A DNA stretch of 64,000 nt, from assembly GCA_035196065.1 (NCBI GenBank), contig CP136575.1, forward strand, positions 2,644,769-2,708,768. The letters run 5' to 3'. The notes under the pieces were generated by a model. That model was not told where the DNA came from. It did not search any database and was given only the letters and a program-made list of their open reading frames with translations. The translations under genes were made by a program, and so were the position numbers. Below are positions 9,588-18,956 of this stretch, piece after piece. Each line of letters begins with the position of its first letter. The first letter of the stretch is position 1. The stretch is from Sphingobium sp. (lineage in GTDB: Bacteria > Pseudomonadota > Alphaproteobacteria > Sphingomonadales > Sphingomonadaceae).

Positions 9588-10202
9588 TTATCGCGCCAAC
9601 GCAGTCGCGGCGCGGGCCGCAGCCTCAATCGCTGCGACATCCGGCGTTCCTTTAGCAACAAGCCAGCTACCGCCAACACATAAAATCTCAGGTACAGCGA
9701 GCCAATCGGCGGCATTGTCCTGCCGGATACCGCCCGTCGGGCAGAATTTGCAGTTGTAAAAGGGCCCGATCAGCGATTTCAGCGCCGGAAGCCCGCCGCT
9801 GGCTTCTGCAGGGAAGAATTTGAAATGCTCCAGGCCAAGGTCCATCCCGCGCATGATGTCACCCGCATTGGCAACGCCCGGCAAAAAGGGAATGCCACTT
9901 TCAACTGCAGCGGTGCCCAGATTGTCGGTCAGCCCCGGCGAGACGATGAATTCGCTTCCCGCGTCGATTGCTGCGCGCAACCCGGCCACGTTGACGACCG
10001 TGCCGGCGCCGACAATCGCGCCCGGAACCTTTTTCATCTCTGCAATCGCTTCAAGGCCGGCTGCCGTGCGCAGCGTAACCTCAAGAACCCGCAAGCCGCC
10101 AGCAACCAGCGCCTCAGCAATCGGCCGGGCATAAGCAACGTCTTCTATCACCAGCACCGGTATGACAGGCGCAGTGCGCATAATGGTTTCAATCGGCTTC
10201 AT
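9588..10202 (-). CDS. eda: KDPG aldolase (2-dehydro-3-deoxyphosphogluconate aldolase)
   Basis: Splits 2-keto-3-deoxy-6-phosphogluconate into pyruvate and glyceraldehyde 3-phosphate, the final Entner-Doudoroff step. 204 residues form a TIM barrel; the Schiff-base lysine is in HFKFFPAEASGG, the general base Glu is in VLEVTLRT, and GAGTVVNVAGLRAAIDAG and FIVSPG are recognisable. It starts 9 bases after glk ends and precedes pgl. Confidence 0.95.
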   Translation of the reverse strand: MKPIETIMRTAPVIPVLVIEDVAYARPIAEALVAGGLRVLEVTLRTAAGLEAIAEMKKVPGAIVGAGTVVNVAGLRAAIDAGSEFIVSPGLTDNLGTAAVESGIPFLPGVANAGDIMRGMDLGLEHFKFFPAEASGGLPALKSLIGPFYNCKFCPTGGIRQDNAADWLAVPEILCVGGSWLVAKGTPDVAAIEAAARAATALAR

Positions 10203-10211
10203 ATCCTGTCC

Positions 10212-11180
10212 CTAAAGATGCTGGCGCGCATATGCGGCTGCAGCGCCGAATAGCCCGGGTTGGGGGTGCGTGATCAGTTTGACCGGCAGACCTGCCATCA
10301 AGCCTTCGAAACGACCCTTGGCGCAAAACCGTTCTGCAAAGCCCGACCGCAGCAATGTTTCCTTGATCCGAAGCCCCAGTCCGCCAGCTATGACGACACC
10401 GGAAAAGCCGCCCTGTGCAAGCGCAATATCGCCGGCAACGCTCCCCAGTGCGAGGCAGAATCGGTCAACCGCAGCGGCGGCAAGGCTATCATCGCCAGAA
10501 GTGCCCAGCGTCCAGAGCGCCTTGTCGTCGACTGGCTGAAACGCCTTGCCCTCGATTGCAGCCAGCGTTTCATAGATATCGACGAGCCCGGGACCCGAAA
10601 CCACCCTTTCGACCGATACCCGGCGGTAACGTTTGCGTAGCCGCGCCAATATTGCATCCTCGATTGTATCGAGCGGCGCGAAATCGATATGCCCGCCCTC
10701 GGTCGGCTGGACGTGATAGCCATGGTCGGTGCGCAAAAGGTGCGCAACCCCAAGTCCGGTGCCGGGTCCGACGATGCTGATGGTACCCGTTGCGCCCAAC
10801 GGCTGGTCGGGACCGCACAGATGCGTGAAATGGGCTGGTTCTGCCTGCGCAACGGCATGGCCCACCGCTTCGAAATCATTGACGAGCGCAAAGGTTTCGA
10901 CCTTCAACTTCTCACGGATCAGCGCGGGACGGATGATCCAGGGATTGTTGGTGAACTTGATCACCTCGCCGCCCACCGGACCAGCGATGGCGATCGCCAC
11001 AGCATTGGGGACCGCACCGTCAAGCGTTTCACCATAGGCCTCCCACGCCGTCTGGAAAGACGCATGTTCGGCAGTTTTCATGGTCATGGGCTCGCCAAGC
11101 GAAACAACCCTGCCATCCGCCACTTCAGCCAGCGCAAAACGGGCGTGCGTGCCGCCAATATCGATCGTGACAATCTGCAT
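10212..11180 (-). CDS. glk: Glucokinase
   Basis: Phosphorylates glucose with ATP, feeding zwf. About 322 residues of the bacterial glucokinase (GlcK/ROK-related actin-like ATPase) family, with the phosphate loop IDIGGTHARFALAEV at the N-terminus, the NNPWIIRP sugar-binding segment, LVNDFEAVGHA carrying the catalytic Asp and IVGPGTGLGVAHL. The edd stop and the ATG overlap in TGATG; an adjacent GTG at 11183 is the alternative start. The gene is translationally coupled to edd. Confidence 0.94.
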   Translation of the reverse strand: MQIVTIDIGGTHARFALAEVADGRVVSLGEPMTMKTAEHASFQTAWEAYGETLDGAVPNAVAIAIAGPVGGEVIKFTNNPWIIRPALIREKLKVETFALVNDFEAVGHAVAQAEPAHFTHLCGPDQPLGATGTISIVGPGTGLGVAHLLRTDHGYHVQPTEGGHIDFAPLDTIEDAILARLRKRYRRVSVERVVSGPGLVDIYETLAAIEGKAFQPVDDKALWTLGTSGDDSLAAAAVDRFCLALGSVAGDIALAQGGFSGVVIAGGLGLRIKETLLRSGFAERFCAKGRFEGLMAGLPVKLITHPQPGLFGAAAAYARQHL

Positions 11181-13018
11181 CACAGGCCTGCTTCCGCAAG
11201 CATCGCAGAGCCGCCTTTTTCAGCTTCGTCTGCGAAATGGCGCATCACCGCGAACAGTTCGCGTGCGCAGCCCGGTTCGAACGGCGGCTGTTTCGCGTCT
11301 TCGCGTGCAGCCCATTCGGCAGGCTCGACCAAGGCTTCCAGACTGCCCTGATGCGCGCAAAGGCGCACGACATCGCCATCGCGCAGTTTGGCGAGCTGCC
11401 CACCCTTTGCAGCCTCTGGGCTGATATGGATCGCGGCAGGCACCTTGCCGCTCGCGCCGGACATGCGGCCGTCGGTGACCAGCGCAACCTTGTACCCCTT
11501 ATCCTGCAACACGCCCAACGGTGGCGTCAGCTTATGAAGTTCGGGCATGCCATTCGCTGCCGGGCCTTGGAACCGAACGACGACGACGACATCTCGGTCA
11601 AGTTCCCCCGCCTTAAAGGCGGCCAGCACGTCATTCTGATCGGCAAAGACACGCGCCGGTGCCTCAATCGTCCAACGGCTTTCATCGACGGCGCTGGTCT
11701 TGAAAGTCCCGCGTCCCAGATTGCCTGTAACCAACCGCATTCCGCCGTCGGCGCAGAAGGGATCTGCAACGCTGCGCAATATGCTTTCATCACCCGTTTT
11801 TTCAGGTGCCGGATCCCAGACGAGGCTATCGCCATTCATACGCGGCTCCTGCGCCCCAGCGCGCAGTCCGCCGCCATAAACAGTCAGAATATCATCATGG
11901 ACAAGGCCTGCATCGAGCAGTTCTCGAATGACAAAGGGCATCCCGCCGGCCGCAGCAAAATAATTCACGTCGCCCGCGCCATTGGGATAGACCCGCGCAA
12001 TCAACGGAACGACAGAGGACAATTCGTCCATATCCTTCCAATCGATCATGATACCGGCCGCCCGGGCGATCGCTGGCAGGTGGATGGCATGGTTGGTCGA
12101 ACCGCCGGTTGCAAGCAACCCGACAATCGCGTTCACAATCGCCTTTTCATCGACGCATTGGCCAAAGGGGCGATAGTCCGCATTCGGCGCACCATCCTTA
12201 TCCCAGCCTATTTCGGTGATCCGGTGCGTCGCCGCGCGCGTCAATTCCTGCCGCAGCTTGGTACCTGGATTACAGAAGCTGGAGCCGGGCATGTGAAGGC
12301 CCATCATCTCCATCATCATCTGGTTGGAATTGGCTGTTCCATAGAAGGTGCAGGTGCCCGCGCCATGATAAGATGCAGCCTCAGCCTCCAGCAGTTCCTC
12401 GCGGCCGACCTTACCCTCGGCATAAAGCTGGCGGATGCGTTGCTTCTCCTTATTGGCAAGGCCCGACGGCATTGGTCCAGCGGGTATCAGGATCATCGGC
12501 AAATGGCCAAAGCGCAGCGCGCCGATCAAAAGGCCCGGGACAATCTTGTCACACAGGCCAAGAAGCACCGCGCCTTCGAACATCCCGTGGCTTAGCCCTA
12601 CGGCAGCGCCCATGGCGATATTGTCGCGGCTGAAAAGCGACAATTCCATCGACGGCTGGCCCTGCGTCACCCCGTCACACATCGCCGGAACACCGCCGGC
12701 GACCTGCGCAGTCGCACCGCGTTCGCGGGCGAACATCTTTATCTGTTCAGGATAACGTCCATAAGGCTGATGCGCGGACAGCATGTCATTATAGGCGGTG
12801 ATGATACCGATGTTCATCGCATGTCCGCCGCGAATAACAGGCTTGTCATCGCCGCTTGCCGCAAAACCGTGTGCCAGGTTTCCGCAAGACAGCGTAGGCC
12901 GATTGACGCCAGCGTCGCGTGCCCGCGCGATCAGATCAAGATAAGCGGTCCGGCCCTGCCTAGACCTCTCTATGATGCGTTTAGTGACTGCATCGACGAC
13001 GGGGTTCAACTCATTCAT
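11180..13018 (-). CDS. edd: 6-phosphogluconate dehydratase
   Basis: Dehydrates 6-phosphogluconate to KDPG, the committed Entner-Doudoroff step. 612 residues of the IlvD/Edd family, with the cluster-binding signature [19 protein letters not shown] and further Cys at CGNLAHGF and [15 protein letters not shown]. The [4Fe-4S] cluster makes such enzymes oxygen sensitive. The start overlaps the end of zwf by eight bases and the stop overlaps the glk start. Confidence 0.97.
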
Positions 13019-14456
13019 GCCAGCTTACTCCATCACGCTCGACCAGCGCTATCGCGGCATTGGGCCCCCATCCCCCCGCACCATAATTTTTGGGCTTCAA
13101 CCCGGTTTCCGACCACAAGCCGCGAATTGCATCGACCCAAGTCCATTGCGCTTCCACCTCGTCGCGACGCACGAACAGCGTTTGGTCGCCCTCGATAAGG
13201 TCCAGCAGCAGCCGTTCATAAGCAATACGGCGGCGCGAAGCCGCAAAGGCGGCGGTCAGCGACAGATCCAGCGGCACCTCGCGCAGCGTGACGCCGCCAC
13301 GATCAAGCCCGGGCTCTTTCGCCATGACCAGCAATCGGACATATTCTTCCGGCTGCAAACGGATGACCAGCGTATTCGCCTCAAGGCGCCCGCCACGCTC
13401 CCGAAAGATATTGTGCGGCACGGGCTTGAACCGGATCACAATTTCGCTGCGCCTTTCGGCCAGTCTTTTACCGGTGCGTAGATAAAAGGGTACGCCCTGC
13501 CAGCGCCAGTTATCGACAAAGGCCTTGATCGCTACAAAGGTTTCGGTGTCGGACGCCTTGCCAAGATCGCTATCATAGCTCTCGACCGCAGTTCCGTTGA
13601 CGGCACCCGCGCCATATTGGCCCGTCACGACATCACCTTCCGCAACGGTGCGAAGCGAGCGCAACACCTTCACCTTTTCGTCGCGGATCGCGGTCGCATC
13701 CAGATTGGCGGGCGGCTCCATCGCGGTCAGGGCAAGCAGCTGCAGCATGTGGTTTTGCACCATGTCACGCAACGCGCCGGTATCTTCATAAAAGCCGGCA
13801 CGCCCTTCCAAACCAACGGTTTCGCTGACCGTGATCTGGACATGCTCGATCGCGTTTGCGTTCCACAAGGGTTCGAAAAGCATGTTCGCAAAGCGCAGCG
13901 CCATCAGGTTCTGCACCGTTTCCTTGCCCAGATAATGGTCAATCCGGAAGGTGCGGCTTTCGGGAAAAACGGCGTTGACTGCATCGTTGATCGACTGGCT
14001 TGAGGCCAAATCATTGCCCAGCGGCTTTTCAAGACCGATCCGCACATTATCGCCGGCAAGCCCAGCACCATGCAGCCCCTTGATCGTCGGTTCAAAAAGA
14101 AAGGGTGCTGTCGAAAGGAAAATTGAAAGCCCGCCGGATATATCGCCAATCTTCTCTGCCAACCCGGCAAACCCTTCCGGCCGGGATGCGTCGAGCGGCT
14201 GGTATTTCAGGCGGGTCAAAAAGGCGTCGATCTTGCCTTCATCTTTGCGATCATCCGGCAGGAATTCGCAAAGCGCTTCGCGGGCGAAGGCGCGAAAGCT
14301 GTCATCATCATGCTCGCTTCGCGCGGTGCCGAAAATGCGCAACGCCGGCGCGATCAGTTCGTCAGAGTGCAAGGCATAAAGCGACGGCAGCAACATGCGC
14401 CGCGCCAGATCGCCCGTGGCGCCGAACAGCAGCAACGTCTCGCTATGCTGGCTCAT
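13011..14456 (-). CDS. zwf: Glucose-6-phosphate 1-dehydrogenase
   Basis: Oxidises glucose 6-phosphate to 6-phosphogluconolactone with NAD(P)+. The Rossmann motif [16 protein letters not shown] opens the protein and the substrate-binding active site RIDHYLGKE is intact. ATG 14456 is chosen over an upstream extension because GGGAG precedes it and the conserved domain starts within a few residues ([16 protein letters not shown]); this gives 481 residues. It heads the Entner-Doudoroff operon, 84 bases after the FabD-like gene. Confidence 0.96.
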
Positions 14457-14540
14457 ACACTTGTCTCCCGCGAACATGACCGCGCGCCTTCGACAACCAT
14501 ATTGATGCGAAGTCAAATGACTAGGCGGCAAGCGACCGGT

Positions 14541-15575
14541 TTATTCGTATGTCACCAGCCTGCGCTGATCGTCCATACCCATAGATACCAGCAACGGATC
14601 GCTTGACTGGCGCGACTGAAAATCCGCCTTCCCCTTCAGATCGCGCCATCCGCATGCAATCAACGCCTGCGCCACGGGTGCGCCCAGCGTCGTGCCGGGC
14701 CCCAAAATGGCAATCTTGTCCGGGCAATATTCCTGCGCGGCGACTTGCACGGCGCGGGTGAAATCATAGGGACGGTTAATCTGCGCGCCGAGCGTATAAT
14801 CGTAGATAGCAGCCGGATCGAATGCCTTTGGCGACCAGATTTTTCCTGTGCCGTCAATCGCAGGAACCGCACCCTGGTCAAATGCCGCAACCGGATTGGC
14901 CGCCCTAGCCATCGGTACGATATGATCCAGCAAGGGCGAATGGAAGGCGGCGTGATAGTTCAGCTTCAGCGGAAAGCGATCATCCTTTGGGAGCCGATCC
15001 ATCAGCCATTTGAGGCCCGCATCGTCGGCTGCAAACACGATCATCGCGCCGAGGCGGATCGAAACATAGATTTTGCGCGCGGCAGCCCCTGCTTCGGCAA
15101 TCACCTCTGCAACTATAGCCGCTTTTGCCGGATCGATCCGCCAGTCGGCATCGGCCAATGACCAGACAAGTTGTCCACCCTGCCCGTTTTCGTGCATCAA
15201 CCCGCCCATATTGTTGACGAGCCGGGCACCGGCATCAAGATCGACCACGCCGGCGCAGGCAAGCGCCAGATACCAGCCCATCGAATTGCCCGTCACCGCA
15301 ACCACTTCAAAGCGCTCACGGTCGATCGCGGCAAAATCTGCCAATGCGCAAGCATAGATAAGAAGCGACGCATTATCGCCGGGCATATGCAGCGACGGGC
15401 TGTATTTCTCTGCCCCGTCGAGTTGCGAAATGGTCGGTTGGCCTTGCGATGCGCGATAGGCATCGAGCCGGGCAACAAGTTCACCACCGCCGCCATGGTG
15501 GCGCCGCAAATAGCCTAATTCAGATGCGTTATAGGTTCCGCGACCGGGACAAACGACGAGCAGTTTCTCTTTCAT
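14541..15575 (-). CDS. FabD-like acyltransferase, malonyl-Arg missing
   Basis: 344 residues with the fold of ACP S-malonyltransferase (FabD) or polyketide AT domains. The nucleophile elbow is GNSMGWY (Ser98) in place of GHSLGEY, and the catalytic His is kept in NYHAAFHSPLL. The Arg that binds the malonyl carboxylate (E. coli R117, in VEMRGKFM) is Met123 here (NNMGGLM), and the N-terminal GQGSQ is GRGTYN. This suggests transfer of a non-carboxylated acyl group. The start overlaps the stop of the E1 fusion gene by four bases (ATGA), so the two are translationally coupled. The acceptor (ACP, CoA or other) is unknown. Confidence 0.8.
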   Translation of the reverse strand: MKEKLLVVCPGRGTYNASELGYLRRHHGGGGELVARLDAYRASQGQPTISQLDGAEKYSPSLHMPGDNASLLIYACALADFAAIDRERFEVVAVTGNSMGWYLALACAGVVDLDAGARLVNNMGGLMHENGQGGQLVWSLADADWRIDPAKAAIVAEVIAEAGAAARKIYVSIRLGAMIVFAADDAGLKWLMDRLPKDDRFPLKLNYHAAFHSPLLDHIVPMARAANPVAAFDQGAVPAIDGTGKIWSPKAFDPAAIYDYTLGAQINRPYDFTRAVQVAAQEYCPDKIAILGPGTTLGAPVAQALIACGWRDLKGKADFQSRQSSDPLLVSMGMDDQRRLVTYE

Positions 15576-17764
15576 TTGCCTGCCGCCTTCAGTGCAGCCT
15601 CAATGATCGTCGCCTTGCTGGGCAAGGTCAACTCGGCTGCAGGGCCAAGCGCGATGAAGCAGTCGTCGGCGGTCAGGCGGCTGGTATCATTCCCCCGGCC
15701 TGCCTCAGCAAGGATGGTCATCAGTTTTTCCGACGGGCTGCCCGCGCGGCGGCATTCGTCAACGATCAGGATATTCTTTGCCGGGGCAACCGCTGCGACG
15801 ATTTCTGCCTCATTAAGCGGATGCAACCAGCGCAGATCGATAATGCGCAGATCGATGCCCTGGGCACGCAACTCTGCCTCTGCCTGACGGCTTAAATAAT
15901 AACCATTTCCATAGCTTATGATCGCAAGTTCGGTGCCGTTACCATGCATTCCGATCTGGCCCAAACCGATCTGCTTCGCATCAGAAGGCGCGACATAATC
16001 TGCCGTCCATCCGCCATCGCCGGTGAGCAGATCGGTTGTGTGATAAAGGGCGATCGGTTCAACAAACACGATCACGCGGCCATCCTCATGCGCCAGACGC
16101 ACACATTCGCGCAGCATCGCCGGGGCATCGGCGGCGCAGCTTGGCACGGCGACAATGATACCCGGAATATCGGTCAGCACCGCAAGGCTGTTGTCATTGT
16201 GGAAATGGCCGCCAAAGCCCTTCTGGTAAGGCAGCCCGGCGATCCGGACGACCATCGGGTTGCGATACTGCTGGTTGGAAAAGAAACTGAGCGTCGCTGC
16301 CTCTCCGCGGATCTGATCCTCGGCATTGTGCAGATAGGCAAGGAACTGGATTTCAGGGACGGGGACAAAGCCATTATGCCCCATGCCGATGGCAAGGCCG
16401 AGGATGGTCTGTTCGTCCAGCAATGTATCAAAAACCCGCGCCGCGCCGAATTTTTCCTGCAACCCCTGCGTTACGCCATAAACGCCGCCCTTGCGGGCGA
16501 TGTCCTCGCCAAACAGCGCGACATTGGGATAGCGCAGCATCAGGTCAGCCAACGCAAAATTGATCGATTTGGCCAACGTCACCGGCTTGGCAAGGTTGCG
16601 CAAGTCCTTGGCGAACAGCGCATCCCGGTCTGCCGACGCGGGAAGTGCAGGCGATGGCTGCGCGGCGGTTTCCGGCTCGATCGGCGCCATCACCTCTTCC
16701 CGGGTGGTCAGTTTGGGTTTGGACAGTGCCTCAAGCGCGACCCGTTCCACCTGTTGCCGCATCGCCTCATAGCGATCGACAATTTCCTCCCGGCTCAATC
16801 CGCCATGCTGAATCAGGGCACGGGCGCTGTGCAGCAGCGGGTCTTGCGCTTCATTGGCCTCAATCGTTTCCAATGCGGCATAGCTTGCTTCCACGTCAGC
16901 GCCGGCATGACCCATCAGGCGCACCGTGCGCATATGAAGAAAGACCGGCTTCCGCCGGCTGCGGGCGTAGCTGATCGCCTCTTCACAACCGCGCATCGCA
17001 TCGAGCATGTCGACGCCGTCGCACTGGATATATTTCAATGCAGGGCGGTGCGCAAAATTCGCTTCGACCCAGCCACCGGGTGTGCGGACTGAAATGCCGA
17101 TGCCATTATCCTCGCAAAGGAAAACCAGCGGCATGGGGAGATGCTGATAGGCCGCCCAACAGGCACTGTTGATCGCGCCTTGCGCGGTGGAATGGTTGGA
17201 CGACGCATCCCCGAACGAACAGAGAATCACCGCATCGTCGGGCAGCGACGCATCGCCAAGCCGAAGCCGCTGCGCCATGCCGATGCTGTGCGCAGCGCCA
17301 ACGGCCTTGGGCAGGTGCGAGGCGATTGTGCTGGTTTGCGGTGGCACAAAGCTGTGGGCGCAGCCCAATACCTTGTGTCGTCCTCCCGAAATCGGATCGT
17401 CGGCAGAGGCCGCAAAACTGAGCGCCATATCATAAAGCGGAGTCAGCCCCCCCGCCTGCTTCTTCCGCTGGATCAGGAAGGCCGCGTCACGATAGTGGAG
17501 AAAAGCCATATCGCTGGTTCTGCTTGTCGCAGCGAGCGCCGCTGTACCTTCATGGCCCGAACTGCCGATCGAATAGAAAGTCTTGCCCTTCGATCGGCGC
17601 GCCCAAAGGTCAAGATGGCGCGACATGATCTGACTGTCGAACAGGTCGACAAGAATATGCGCCGCGGGAATCGGTACATTCTGGTTGCTGCGCGCCGCGG
17701 GCAGATCGCCCGCCAAAACGCGCCGGCCAAAGGCTTCATCTATGATCGTTGGTCGGTCAAACAT
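15572..17764 (-). CDS. Fused alpha/beta 2-oxoacid dehydrogenase E1 (ThDP enzyme)
   Basis: 730 residues that join an E1 alpha-like half (about 1-340) and an E1 beta-like half (about 395-730) through a Pro/Ala/Glu linker. The alpha half carries the ThDP/Mg motif GDASSNHSTAQGAIN; the beta half has the conserved LFGEDIARKGGVYGVTQGL, FDTLLDEQTILGLAIGMGHNG and the transketolase C-terminal domain ending in ILIVDECRRAGSPSEKL. Closest in style to branched-chain 2-oxoacid (2-oxoisovalerate) dehydrogenase E1. No E2 or E3 gene is nearby; instead a FabD-like acyltransferase follows with a 4-base overlap, so the acyl acceptor may not be a standard lipoyl E2. Confidence 0.88.
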   Translation of the reverse strand: MFDRPTIIDEAFGRRVLAGDLPAARSNQNVPIPAAHILVDLFDSQIMSRHLDLWARRSKGKTFYSIGSSGHEGTAALAATSRTSDMAFLHYRDAAFLIQRKKQAGGLTPLYDMALSFAASADDPISGGRHKVLGCAHSFVPPQTSTIASHLPKAVGAAHSIGMAQRLRLGDASLPDDAVILCSFGDASSNHSTAQGAINSACWAAYQHLPMPLVFLCEDNGIGISVRTPGGWVEANFAHRPALKYIQCDGVDMLDAMRGCEEAISYARSRRKPVFLHMRTVRLMGHAGADVEASYAALETIEANEAQDPLLHSARALIQHGGLSREEIVDRYEAMRQQVERVALEALSKPKLTTREEVMAPIEPETAAQPSPALPASADRDALFAKDLRNLAKPVTLAKSINFALADLMLRYPNVALFGEDIARKGGVYGVTQGLQEKFGAARVFDTLLDEQTILGLAIGMGHNGFVPVPEIQFLAYLHNAEDQIRGEAATLSFFSNQQYRNPMVVRIAGLPYQKGFGGHFHNDNSLAVLTDIPGIIVAVPSCAADAPAMLRECVRLAHEDGRVIVFVEPIALYHTTDLLTGDGGWTADYVAPSDAKQIGLGQIGMHGNGTELAIISYGNGYYLSRQAEAELRAQGIDLRIIDLRWLHPLNEAEIVAAVAPAKNILIVDECRRAGSPSEKLMTILAEAGRGNDTSRLTADDCFIALGPAAELTLPSKATIIEAALKAAGK

Positions 17765-17816
17765 ATCCGCCGATTAAGCGGAAAAAGGTTCAGATGAAAC
17801 CAAAATCCCGAGGGCG

Positions 17817-18956
17817 TCAGCCCACAACAACCGCACCTGCCCCGACCAGCGCTTCGACCGCGTCATCGGAAAGCCCCGCCTCGGCCAGCACCGCCGCATA
17901 GTCACCGCCGCAAGTCGCAATCACAAATTCCGAAGCCTGGGATTGCGTGGCAAGGCGTGGCGCGATTTGCGGGTGCAGCCATCGGCCATCCTGCAGCATA
18001 GCCTTGCGTTCGGCATTTACGGGATGCGAAGCAGCCTCGACATAATCGAGAACCGGAGTGACGCAGGCATCGGTTAATGCGAAGATCGCCTCCCATTCGT
18101 CGCGGGTTTTTGATGCGAAGGCTTCTTCGAGCATCTGATGCTGCTGCGACCATTTCGAAGGATCATGTTGGCCACCAAAGGCGTCCTTGTCGATCGGCAG
18201 TCGCTCCATCATCGCTGCAAAAAATTGCGGTTCAATGCAGCCAACAGCCATATATTTGCCGTCGCTGGTCGCATAGCAGCGGTAAAAGGGCATGGCCCCG
18301 TCCAACAGGTTCGCGTCGCGTTCGTTACGCCAACGGCCAAGCCCTGCCATGCCATGGACAAAGCTCATCAGGCTATGCGTACCATCGATGATCGCGGCAT
18401 CGACAATATTGCCTTTACCCGTCACCCCGCGCTCGACCAGCGCGGCGAGAATACCGGTCACAAGGAACATCGTGCCACCGCCAAAGTCGCCGACCATATT
18501 CAAGGGCGGCACCGGTGGTTCGCCTGCCTTGCCGATGGAGTTCAAAACGCCGGTCATGCTGATATAGTTGATGTCGTGACCCGCCATCTTGCTCCACGGG
18601 CCGGTCTGCCCCCAACCGGTCATCCGGCCATAGATCAGCTTGGGATTGACGGCATGGCAGGCATCGGGGCCGATGCCCATCCGCTCGGTCACGCCGGGGC
18701 GCAGGCCTTCGATCAGTACATCCGCATTTGCGACCATTTTCAGCAGAGCTTCAACGGCTTCCGTCTTTTTAAGGTCGAGCATGATTGACCGCTTGCCACG
18801 GCCATCAACAGCCTTTGGCATTGCAGGCCCTGGACGATCGACAACGATCACATCGGCACCCATATCGGCAAGCAACTGCCCCGCATAAGGGCCCGGGCCA
18901 ATTCCAGCCAGTTCGATGACCTTGATCCCGTTCAGCGGACCCTGCCGTGCGCTCAT
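17817..18956 (-). CDS. AMACR-type class III CoA transferase/racemase
   Basis: 379 residues of the CaiB/BaiF family. The start LNGIKVIELAGIGPGPYAGQ, then GRMTGWGQTGPW, GHDINYISMTG and GDFGGGTMFLV match alpha-methylacyl-CoA racemase, whose catalytic His and Asp are in GHDINY and GDFGGG. It would epimerise 2-methyl-branched acyl-CoAs, although a CoA transferase activity cannot be excluded. GGAGAG precedes the start, and an inverted repeat lies immediately upstream. It is followed after 52 bases by the E1 fusion gene on the same strand. Confidence 0.88.
   Translation of the reverse strand: MSARQGPLNGIKVIELAGIGPGPYAGQLLADMGADVIVVDRPGPAMPKAVDGRGKRSIMLDLKKTEAVEALLKMVANADVLIEGLRPGVTERMGIGPDACHAVNPKLIYGRMTGWGQTGPWSKMAGHDINYISMTGVLNSIGKAGEPPVPPLNMVGDFGGGTMFLVTGILAALVERGVTGKGNIVDAAIIDGTHSLMSFVHGMAGLGRWRNERDANLLDGAMPFYRCYATSDGKYMAVGCIEPQFFAAMMERLPIDKDAFGGQHDPSKWSQQHQMLEEAFASKTRDEWEAIFALTDACVTPVLDYVEAASHPVNAERKAMLQDGRWLHPQIAPRLATQSQASEFVIATCGGDYAAVLAEAGLSDDAVEALVGAGAVVVG

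Follow-up and report, generated by a model that had tools for sequence, protein, structure and literature searches.

Lysine degradation through pipecolate proceeds by way of piperidine-6-carboxylate and 2-aminoadipate to 2-oxoadipate, and glutaryl-coenzyme A (glutaryl-CoA), once formed from the latter, is converted to crotonyl-CoA. The enzyme for the step from 2-oxoadipate to glutaryl-CoA is unclear in many bacteria; HglS, a 2-oxoadipate dioxygenase/decarboxylase (PF07063), is an alternative in some, and a complex of the human type is assumed for the rest. The human 2-oxoadipate dehydrogenase complex comprises DHTKD1 (E1a), the shared E2 component DLST and E3, and DHTKD1 is reported to work with DLST (PMC7340257, in the extract used). 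Two overlapping genes, encoding a fused dehydrogenase component (E1) and a FabD-fold acyltransferase (AT), lie in a 64,000-nucleotide (nt) stretch of the Sphingobium sp. contig CP136575.1 (forward-strand positions 2,644,769 to 2,708,768; hereafter, the window), and together they most likely make up a 2-oxoadipate dehydrogenase of the lysine pathway whose composition is new. That the pair performs the conversion of 2-oxoadipate to glutaryl-CoA is held with high confidence; its fuller description as a non-canonical bacterial 2-oxoadipate dehydrogenase, with a borrowed lipoyl arm and with AT passing glutaryl to CoA, is favoured with moderate confidence. The proposed reaction is that of the human complex and, like DHTKD1, the window E1 as proposed would lack its own E2 and borrow a shared one; however, DHTKD1 is an E1 of the 2-oxoglutarate dehydrogenase (OGDH) type, whereas the window E1 is a fused chain of the pyruvate dehydrogenase/branched-chain 2-oxoacid dehydrogenase (PDH/BCKDH) type with a FabD-fold partner. 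HglS likewise has 2-oxoadipate as its substrate in the bacterial breakdown of lysine, but unlike E1-AT it is an unrelated iron enzyme yielding 2-hydroxyglutarate. A literature search, judged by titles and the beginnings of abstracts, found no paper on the E1-AT pair.

An earlier note on this DNA had described three genes on one strand, a CoA racemase (AMACR, considered below), E1 and AT, and the map of open reading frames (ORFs) confirms all three on the minus strand, to which every feature coordinate in the window given here refers. E1 (15572..17764, 730 amino acids (aa)) is a fused alpha-beta thiamine diphosphate (ThDP)-dependent 2-oxoacid dehydrogenase E1, with E1_dh forming the alpha part and Transket_pyr and Transketolase_C the beta part; all three domains score above their Pfam cut-offs in a single chain, in agreement with the fusion described in that note. 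The family matches are to PDH/BCKDH E1, the alpha half being closest to BCKDH alpha, and an OGDH-type E1 is not indicated, DHTKD1 being matched by fold alone at 14% identity. The domains and the catalytic Glu, His, Asp and Asn are those of PDH/BCKDH-type E1 enzymes (alpha2 beta2). D186, N220, H286, E451 and H522, which we take to be the ThDP/Mg and catalytic residues, align with PDB chains and are kept in 117/117 loci; among them, Glu451 (16412..16414), presumably the ThDP-activating residue, aligns with the conserved E1-beta Glu. Unlike PDH/BCKDH E1, the window E1 has its alpha and beta parts fused, carries a polar/basic pocket stretch, has no dedicated E2 in the window and is partnered by AT. 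The polar stretch HNAEDQIR (residues 479-486; 16307..16330) stands where PDH- and BCKDH-type beta chains have YEVMDSIC and FPGFDQLV: LHNAEDQI with the following Arg aligns with VYEVMDSI of PDH 3duf and IFPGFDQL of Thermus 1um9, and H479, N480 and R486 are invariant (117/117). A basic run in the alpha half, Arg129-His130-Lys131 (17372..17380), is kept in 115, 115 and 116 of 117 loci, and BCKDH alpha has RQM there. Judged from the alignments, such a stretch fits a dicarboxylic 2-oxoacid, which is not proof; E1 is proposed to be 2-oxoadipate-specific. As the E1 model is less certain (predicted local distance difference test score (pLDDT) 85.7, with loops 514-523 and 577-581 below 50), no pocket geometry is claimed.

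AT (14541..15575, 344 aa), recognised from its ORF, fold model and weak FabD/MdcH matches, is a Ser-His acyltransferase proposed to be a glutaryl transacylase. It shares its fold and Ser-His pair with FabD, the malonyl-CoA:acyl carrier protein (ACP) transacylase: the fold is confidently modelled as that of FabD (pLDDT 96.9), the best structure matches reach Z 33.5 to 4rr5 and 33.2 to 6u0j (the top four chains at about 33 over 289-300 residues), and an AT profile finds FabD structures at E 2e-14. The nucleophile Ser98 (15282..15284), in GNSMGW and aligned with the serine of FabD GHSLG, and the catalytic His212 (14940..14942), aligned with the FabD SH motif, are both kept in 115/115 AT sequences. 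Unlike FabD, AT scores far under the family cut-offs (30-33 bits for FabD/MdcH against 261-298; 30.3 against 260.9 for the FabD family), has GNSMG in place of GHSxG, PGRG in place of PGQG (Arg12, 15540..15542; R in 113/115, with two gaps) and, in the profile alignment, Met123 (15207..15209; M in 114/115) at the position of the malonyl-binding Arg, which we take to be R117 of E. coli FabD. The earlier description of an acyltransferase devoid of the malonyl-binding residue is thereby upheld. A Pfam scan found no family in AT, and thus neither the lipoyl nor the 2-oxoacid_dh catalytic domain of an E2.

The E1-AT pair was followed through 117 loci, namely the window, 18 from a search of its order, 80 from genomes of named species (the best 80 of 134 relatives), three plasmids and 15 loci obtained by searching the class and the phylum. 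Since L055/L102 and L056/L097 are the same genomes twice, 36 groups at 80% E1 identity were used additionally; gene positions at the relatives' loci were set by homology and, for counts of the E1-AT overlap, the start codon nearest to the window protein's start was picked. Both genes are present in 115/117 loci: E1 accompanies AT in all 36 loci found through AT (18 from the order, 15 from class and phylum, three plasmids), and AT accompanies E1 in 78/80 of the named-species loci, which were found through E1. The ATGA by which E1 stop and AT start had been noted to overlap is present at 15572..15575, and a 4-nt overlap recurs in 98/115 pairs (97 ATGA and one GTGA). Pairwise distances of E1 and AT are correlated (Mantel r 0.856 over 34 groups, 0/2000 permutations; 0.848 over 30 groups without the window clade). 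E1-AT is therefore a true conserved, co-evolving module with overlapping genes. Its distribution is patchy: near-full-length AT orthologs occur in 19 of the order's 147 genomes (27 match, but 8 of these have weak FabD-like matches only) and, with the own genome counted, in 5/385 genomes of the class sample and 16/398 of the phylum sample, 6 of the latter outside the class. A search with E1 identified 17/144 genomes, every one of them also AT-positive. The pair occurs in Sphingomonadales, Rhodobacterales, on a Shewanella plasmid and in other Pseudomonadota, with plasmid copies in both Ruegeria and Shewanella; patchiness, plasmid copies and members outside the class suggest that it has spread as a mobile two-gene unit.

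The assignment to lysine degradation comes from the genes that accompany the pair, scored within 6 kb in the 32 groups outside the window clade. At least one lysine-degradation gene lies near E1-AT in 16/32 groups: glutaryl-CoA dehydrogenase (gcdH) in 11, a class I/II aminotransferase in 4 and a class IV aminotransferase in 1, the piperidine-6-carboxylate dehydrogenase gene amaB in 4, and an amaA-like (pipecolate-oxidase-like) gene in 2. The context queries were taken from L168, L183, L116 and L112; some of the groups are therefore matched by their own gene, and L112 is counted solely through its own query. With the query source L168 excluded, gcdH stands directly upstream of E1 on the same strand, at 17-405 nt, in 10/31 groups, with 71-80% identity to the query; a rough chance model (two copies in 3.5 Mb) gives P 2e-13 for this adjacency. 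The identity of this dehydrogenase is indicated by full-length alignment to chains titled glutaryl-CoA dehydrogenase (1e-191 to 3gnc, 3e-166 to 1sir) and by YRS and YEGTHD stretches common to it and the PDB glutaryl-CoA dehydrogenases; its best chain, 4w9u (E 6e-204), is titled only acyl-CoA dehydrogenase, and the protein reached no NCBIfam cut-off. The gene following AT in L071, L072, L181 and L183 is amaB (783-817 bits against a curated cut-off of 730), and the amaA-like protein of L116 falls under its cut-off (426 against 600). The most complete arrangements are aminotransferase-gcdH-E1-AT-amaB in L183 and aminotransferase-E1-AT-amaB-amaA in L181; two plasmid records read aminotransferase-acyl-CoA dehydrogenase-E1-AT, and the Shewanella plasmid reads acyl-CoA dehydrogenase-E1-AT. 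E1-AT is placed at the conversion of 2-oxoadipate to glutaryl-CoA because this is the step left over by the lysine genes beside the pair. The branched 2-oxoacid that the earlier note had envisaged as substrate is not supported, the travelling genes (glutaryl-CoA dehydrogenase, piperidine-6-carboxylate dehydrogenase, the pipecolate-oxidase-like gene and the aminotransferase) pointing to 2-oxoadipate instead.

In Ruegeria, the acyl-CoA dehydrogenase upstream of E1 was considered as gcdH and rejected: its identity to gcdH is 28-31% and, for L144, the single copy scanned, an acryloyl-CoA reductase model came out nearest. Separately, many Ruegeria loci, L131, L144 and L116 among them, encode a protein of >1000 aa 3' of amaA (26 members), and its L116 copy contains 4Fe-4S, Fer2 and DmmA-like parts.

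In the mechanism we propose, lysine would be converted via piperidine-6-carboxylate/aminoadipate semialdehyde and 2-aminoadipate to 2-oxoadipate, which the fused ThDP-dependent E1 would decarboxylate, reductively glutarylating the lipoyl arm of a housekeeping E2; Ser98 of AT would then accept the glutaryl group and hand it to CoA, and glutaryl-CoA dehydrogenase would convert the glutaryl-CoA to crotonyl-CoA. While 2-oxoadipate is strongly indicated as substrate, lipoyl as donor and CoA as acceptor are weakly indicated. A borrowed lipoyl arm is the likeliest acceptor because oxidation of the ThDP adduct needs one and E1 enzymes of the PDH/BCKDH type use lipoyl. The role of AT as a lipoyl-to-CoA transacylase is tentatively put forward, falling a little short of an even call; slightly more tentative is the proposal that a FabD-fold serine acyltransferase replaces the E2 catalytic core by ping-pong Ser-acyl transfer from lipoyl to CoA, which would provide bacteria with a route dedicated to converting 2-oxoadipate to glutaryl-CoA. 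The handover of E1's acyl group to the acyltransferase, suggested in the earlier note, thus survives as a plausible activity within the E1-AT module, but its branched substrate and its racemase do not. On the human OGDH complex E2, glutarylated lipoyl was not restored by added CoA and NAD+ in 30 min, and the serine enzyme ABHD11 restored lipoylation (PMC12643935, in the part available); movement of glutaryl from lipoyl to CoA by AT would productively solve the problem that ABHD11 handles.

The genome carrying the window has three PF00198 E2 genes, all outside the window and none near E1-AT, in line with the E1 without E2 described earlier. By position and length, the first, beside a long E1, is taken for OGDH and the second, beside an E1-alpha, for BCKDH, and the third is paired by position with an E1-alpha candidate 63 kb away. 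PF00364 domains occur in these three E2s, in an ORF of 462 aa that neighbours the E1-alpha at 2137604, and in three presumed biotin proteins (ORFs with 166, 627 and 709 aa). A candidate for a dedicated lipoyl carrier, the only short stand-alone PF00364 protein (76 aa; 82-aa open frame), does not lie near E1-AT but in a cluster (L227 6517-8706; C1:2274517-2276706) with E1-alpha, E1-beta and, by eye, two Rieske-type oxygenases and short-chain dehydrogenases/reductases as neighbours; this cluster is possibly another E2-less 2-oxoacid system.

In extracts of the respective reports, labelled lysine passed through pipecolate and 2-aminoadipate in P. inhibens and labelled glutaryl-CoA was seen (PMC5653290), which counts in favour of the assignment; genes of both lysine pathways were tested in R. 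pomeroyi (PMC4334477), and resting cells of A. tumefaciens could use lysine, glutarate or 2-oxoadipate to make biotin by way of glutaryl-CoA (PMC7645780). A term search of the text of Price 2022 (PMC9007349) returned neither 2-oxoadipate nor glutaryl. E1-AT offers a concrete, easily deleted candidate for the step in laboratory-grown marine bacteria and, if AT truly replaces the E2 transacylase, a new way of building a 2-oxoacid dehydrogenase. The pair is also relevant to where alphaproteobacteria obtain the glutaryl-CoA that goes into biotin, and to the cellular handling of glutaryl-lipoyl.

Within the window's family (64 genomes), amaB is present in 9/14 AT-positive against 8/50 AT-negative genomes (Fisher p 0.0009, a statistic that ignores kinship). 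Several observations weigh against the proposed assignment. Over the whole order, the amaB association is not significant (14/19 against 73/128, p 0.21), 5/19 AT-positive genomes are without amaB, and three of the 19 (G071, G110 and G145) are without gcdH at E 1e-100. Half of the groups (16/32) have none of the sought lysine genes within 6 kb, and the window E1-AT itself lies apart from the lysine genes of its genome, amaB (2881240-2882649, minus strand) and gcdH (2882908-2884080, plus strand), which form a divergent pair 0.2 Mb away; that the genome has both genes counts in favour of the assignment. Two E1 orthologs, L133 (8001-10244) and L136 (8001-10184), are without AT, an assembly search finding no AT anywhere in either assembly; as L133 has gcdH directly upstream of E1, AT may not be strictly required. 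The Arg lost from AT presumably binds a free carboxylate in FabD, yet the glutaryl group would carry a carboxylate. Furthermore, according to the extract used here, the P. inhibens study failed to detect 2-oxoadipate itself, and glutaryl-CoA is also reached by a parallel cadaverine/glutarate route (PMC5653290). Presence of gcdH was rejected as a phyletic profile because it is uninformative, 131/147 genomes carrying the gene.

HglS (PF07063) was not found in the own genome and occurs in 4/147 genomes of the order. Its displacement by AT was considered and set aside, the direction being right but without power (0/19 with AT against 4/128 without, p 1.0). As a separate observation, HglS and amaB are separated by 1.7-4.2 kb in L208, L209 and L211 (G076, G018 and G004), none of which has AT, and HglS would represent an alternative fate of 2-oxoadipate. 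A tryptophan 2,3-dioxygenase-like ORF (by eye; L212 17335-18156, minus strand) is located roughly 6 kb away from the genome's gcdH/amaB pair, and tryptophan could be a further source of 2-oxoadipate.

The occurrence of E1 without AT also fits an accessory function, and the main rival sees AT as a glutaryl-lipoyl thioesterase that frees clogged lipoyl arms and releases glutarate, to be re-activated by a CoA-transferase. Precedents exist in the extracts used, namely ABHD11 (PMC12643935) and the succinyl-CoA:glutarate CoA-transferase of the alphaproteobacterium A. tumefaciens (PMC7645780). ABHD11 resembles the proposed AT as a serine enzyme acting on glutaryl-lipoyl E2, but it is an alpha/beta hydrolase releasing glutarate and is not an operon partner of an E1. 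FabD-fold enzymes are mostly transferases, and the tight coupling of E1 and AT (4-nt overlap in 98/115) exceeds the needs of a clearing enzyme; a thioesterase is hence considered unlikely. Loading of glutaryl onto ACP for biosynthesis, e.g. of BioZ-type pimeloyl/biotin or of lipid, is very unlikely. It draws on the FabD-ACP complexes 6u0j and 6smd among the top AT structure matches and on BioZ, which takes glutaryl-CoA derived from lysine; however, the extract of the same report has BioZ preferring glutaryl-CoA with malonyl-ACP, its authors knowing no evidence of intracellular glutaryl-ACP (PMC7645780). The linked genes, moreover, are catabolic, with gcdH consuming glutaryl-CoA, and the patchiness of the pair (19/147) is unlike an essential route. 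Equally improbable is an E1 acting as a non-oxidative 2-oxoadipate decarboxylase or carboligase, with AT independent of it: no E2 lies in the window or among those of the relatives' neighbour genes that were scanned by family (a part of all), and ThDP-dependent E1 enzymes are presumably capable of such side reactions, but the next enzyme, gcdH, requires glutaryl-CoA and the residues of lipoyl-using E1 enzymes are kept. The weakest reading, that of the earlier note, unites a branched 2-oxoacid E1, the acyltransferase and the racemase in a single cassette, as their adjacency in the window and the closeness of the E1 alpha half to BCKDH alpha would allow, but it is highly improbable given the gcdH/amaB/amaA context, the polar pocket stretch of E1, the separate E1-E2 pair of this genome taken for BCKDH by position and length, and the synteny of AMACR, which already contradicts it.

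AMACR (17817..18956, 379 aa) is indeed a CoA racemase, as had been described: it has a CoA_transf_3 domain, is related to MCR of M. tuberculosis (E 2.5e-115), and has in place His127 and Asp157, the His/Asp pair expected of AMACR. It lies 52 nt from E1 in the window and adjoins E1 in only 2/117 loci, the window and L073, a 99%-identical contig with equally close spacing; it is within 6 kb of E1 in 6/117, and 8/117 loci have <1300 nt upstream of E1, so that adjacency there cannot be judged. In Sphingorhabdus relatives and the sister species, 2.9-6.7 kb separate the two genes; in the Sphingorhabdus relatives an oppositely oriented TonB receptor gene occupies the gap, frequently accompanied by genes for a thiolase and a FadB-like protein, and AMACR of the sister species heads an AMACR-thiolase-FadB-like beta-oxidation set. 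Since the flanking acetyl-CoA synthetase and zwf genes are common to the window and the Sphingorhabdus relatives, loss of the intervening stretch probably brought AMACR and E1 together in the window. The trio is thus ruled out as a unit by synteny: AMACR is a bystander, unrelated to E1-AT function and judged outside the module, and neither the conserved three-gene cassette of the earlier note nor the role it gave the racemase stands. Conservation of gene order in relatives, which it had named as a check, holds for E1-AT and fails for AMACR.

Some minor observations concern the surroundings of the pair. In L084 (511-7797) and its relatives, AMACR, thiolase, FadB-like and TonB receptor genes are found, and the window keeps only AMACR between acs and E1. 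A record titled Nocardioides marinus (L107) contains an E1-AT locus that resembles those of Rhodobacterales and shares gene clusters with Leisingera; the record is possibly mislabelled. Immediately 3' of AT, on the same strand, window positions 9588-14531 carry ORFs that by eye resemble eda, glk, edd and zwf, and the order E1-AT-zwf is common to the window and the Sphingorhabdus relatives.

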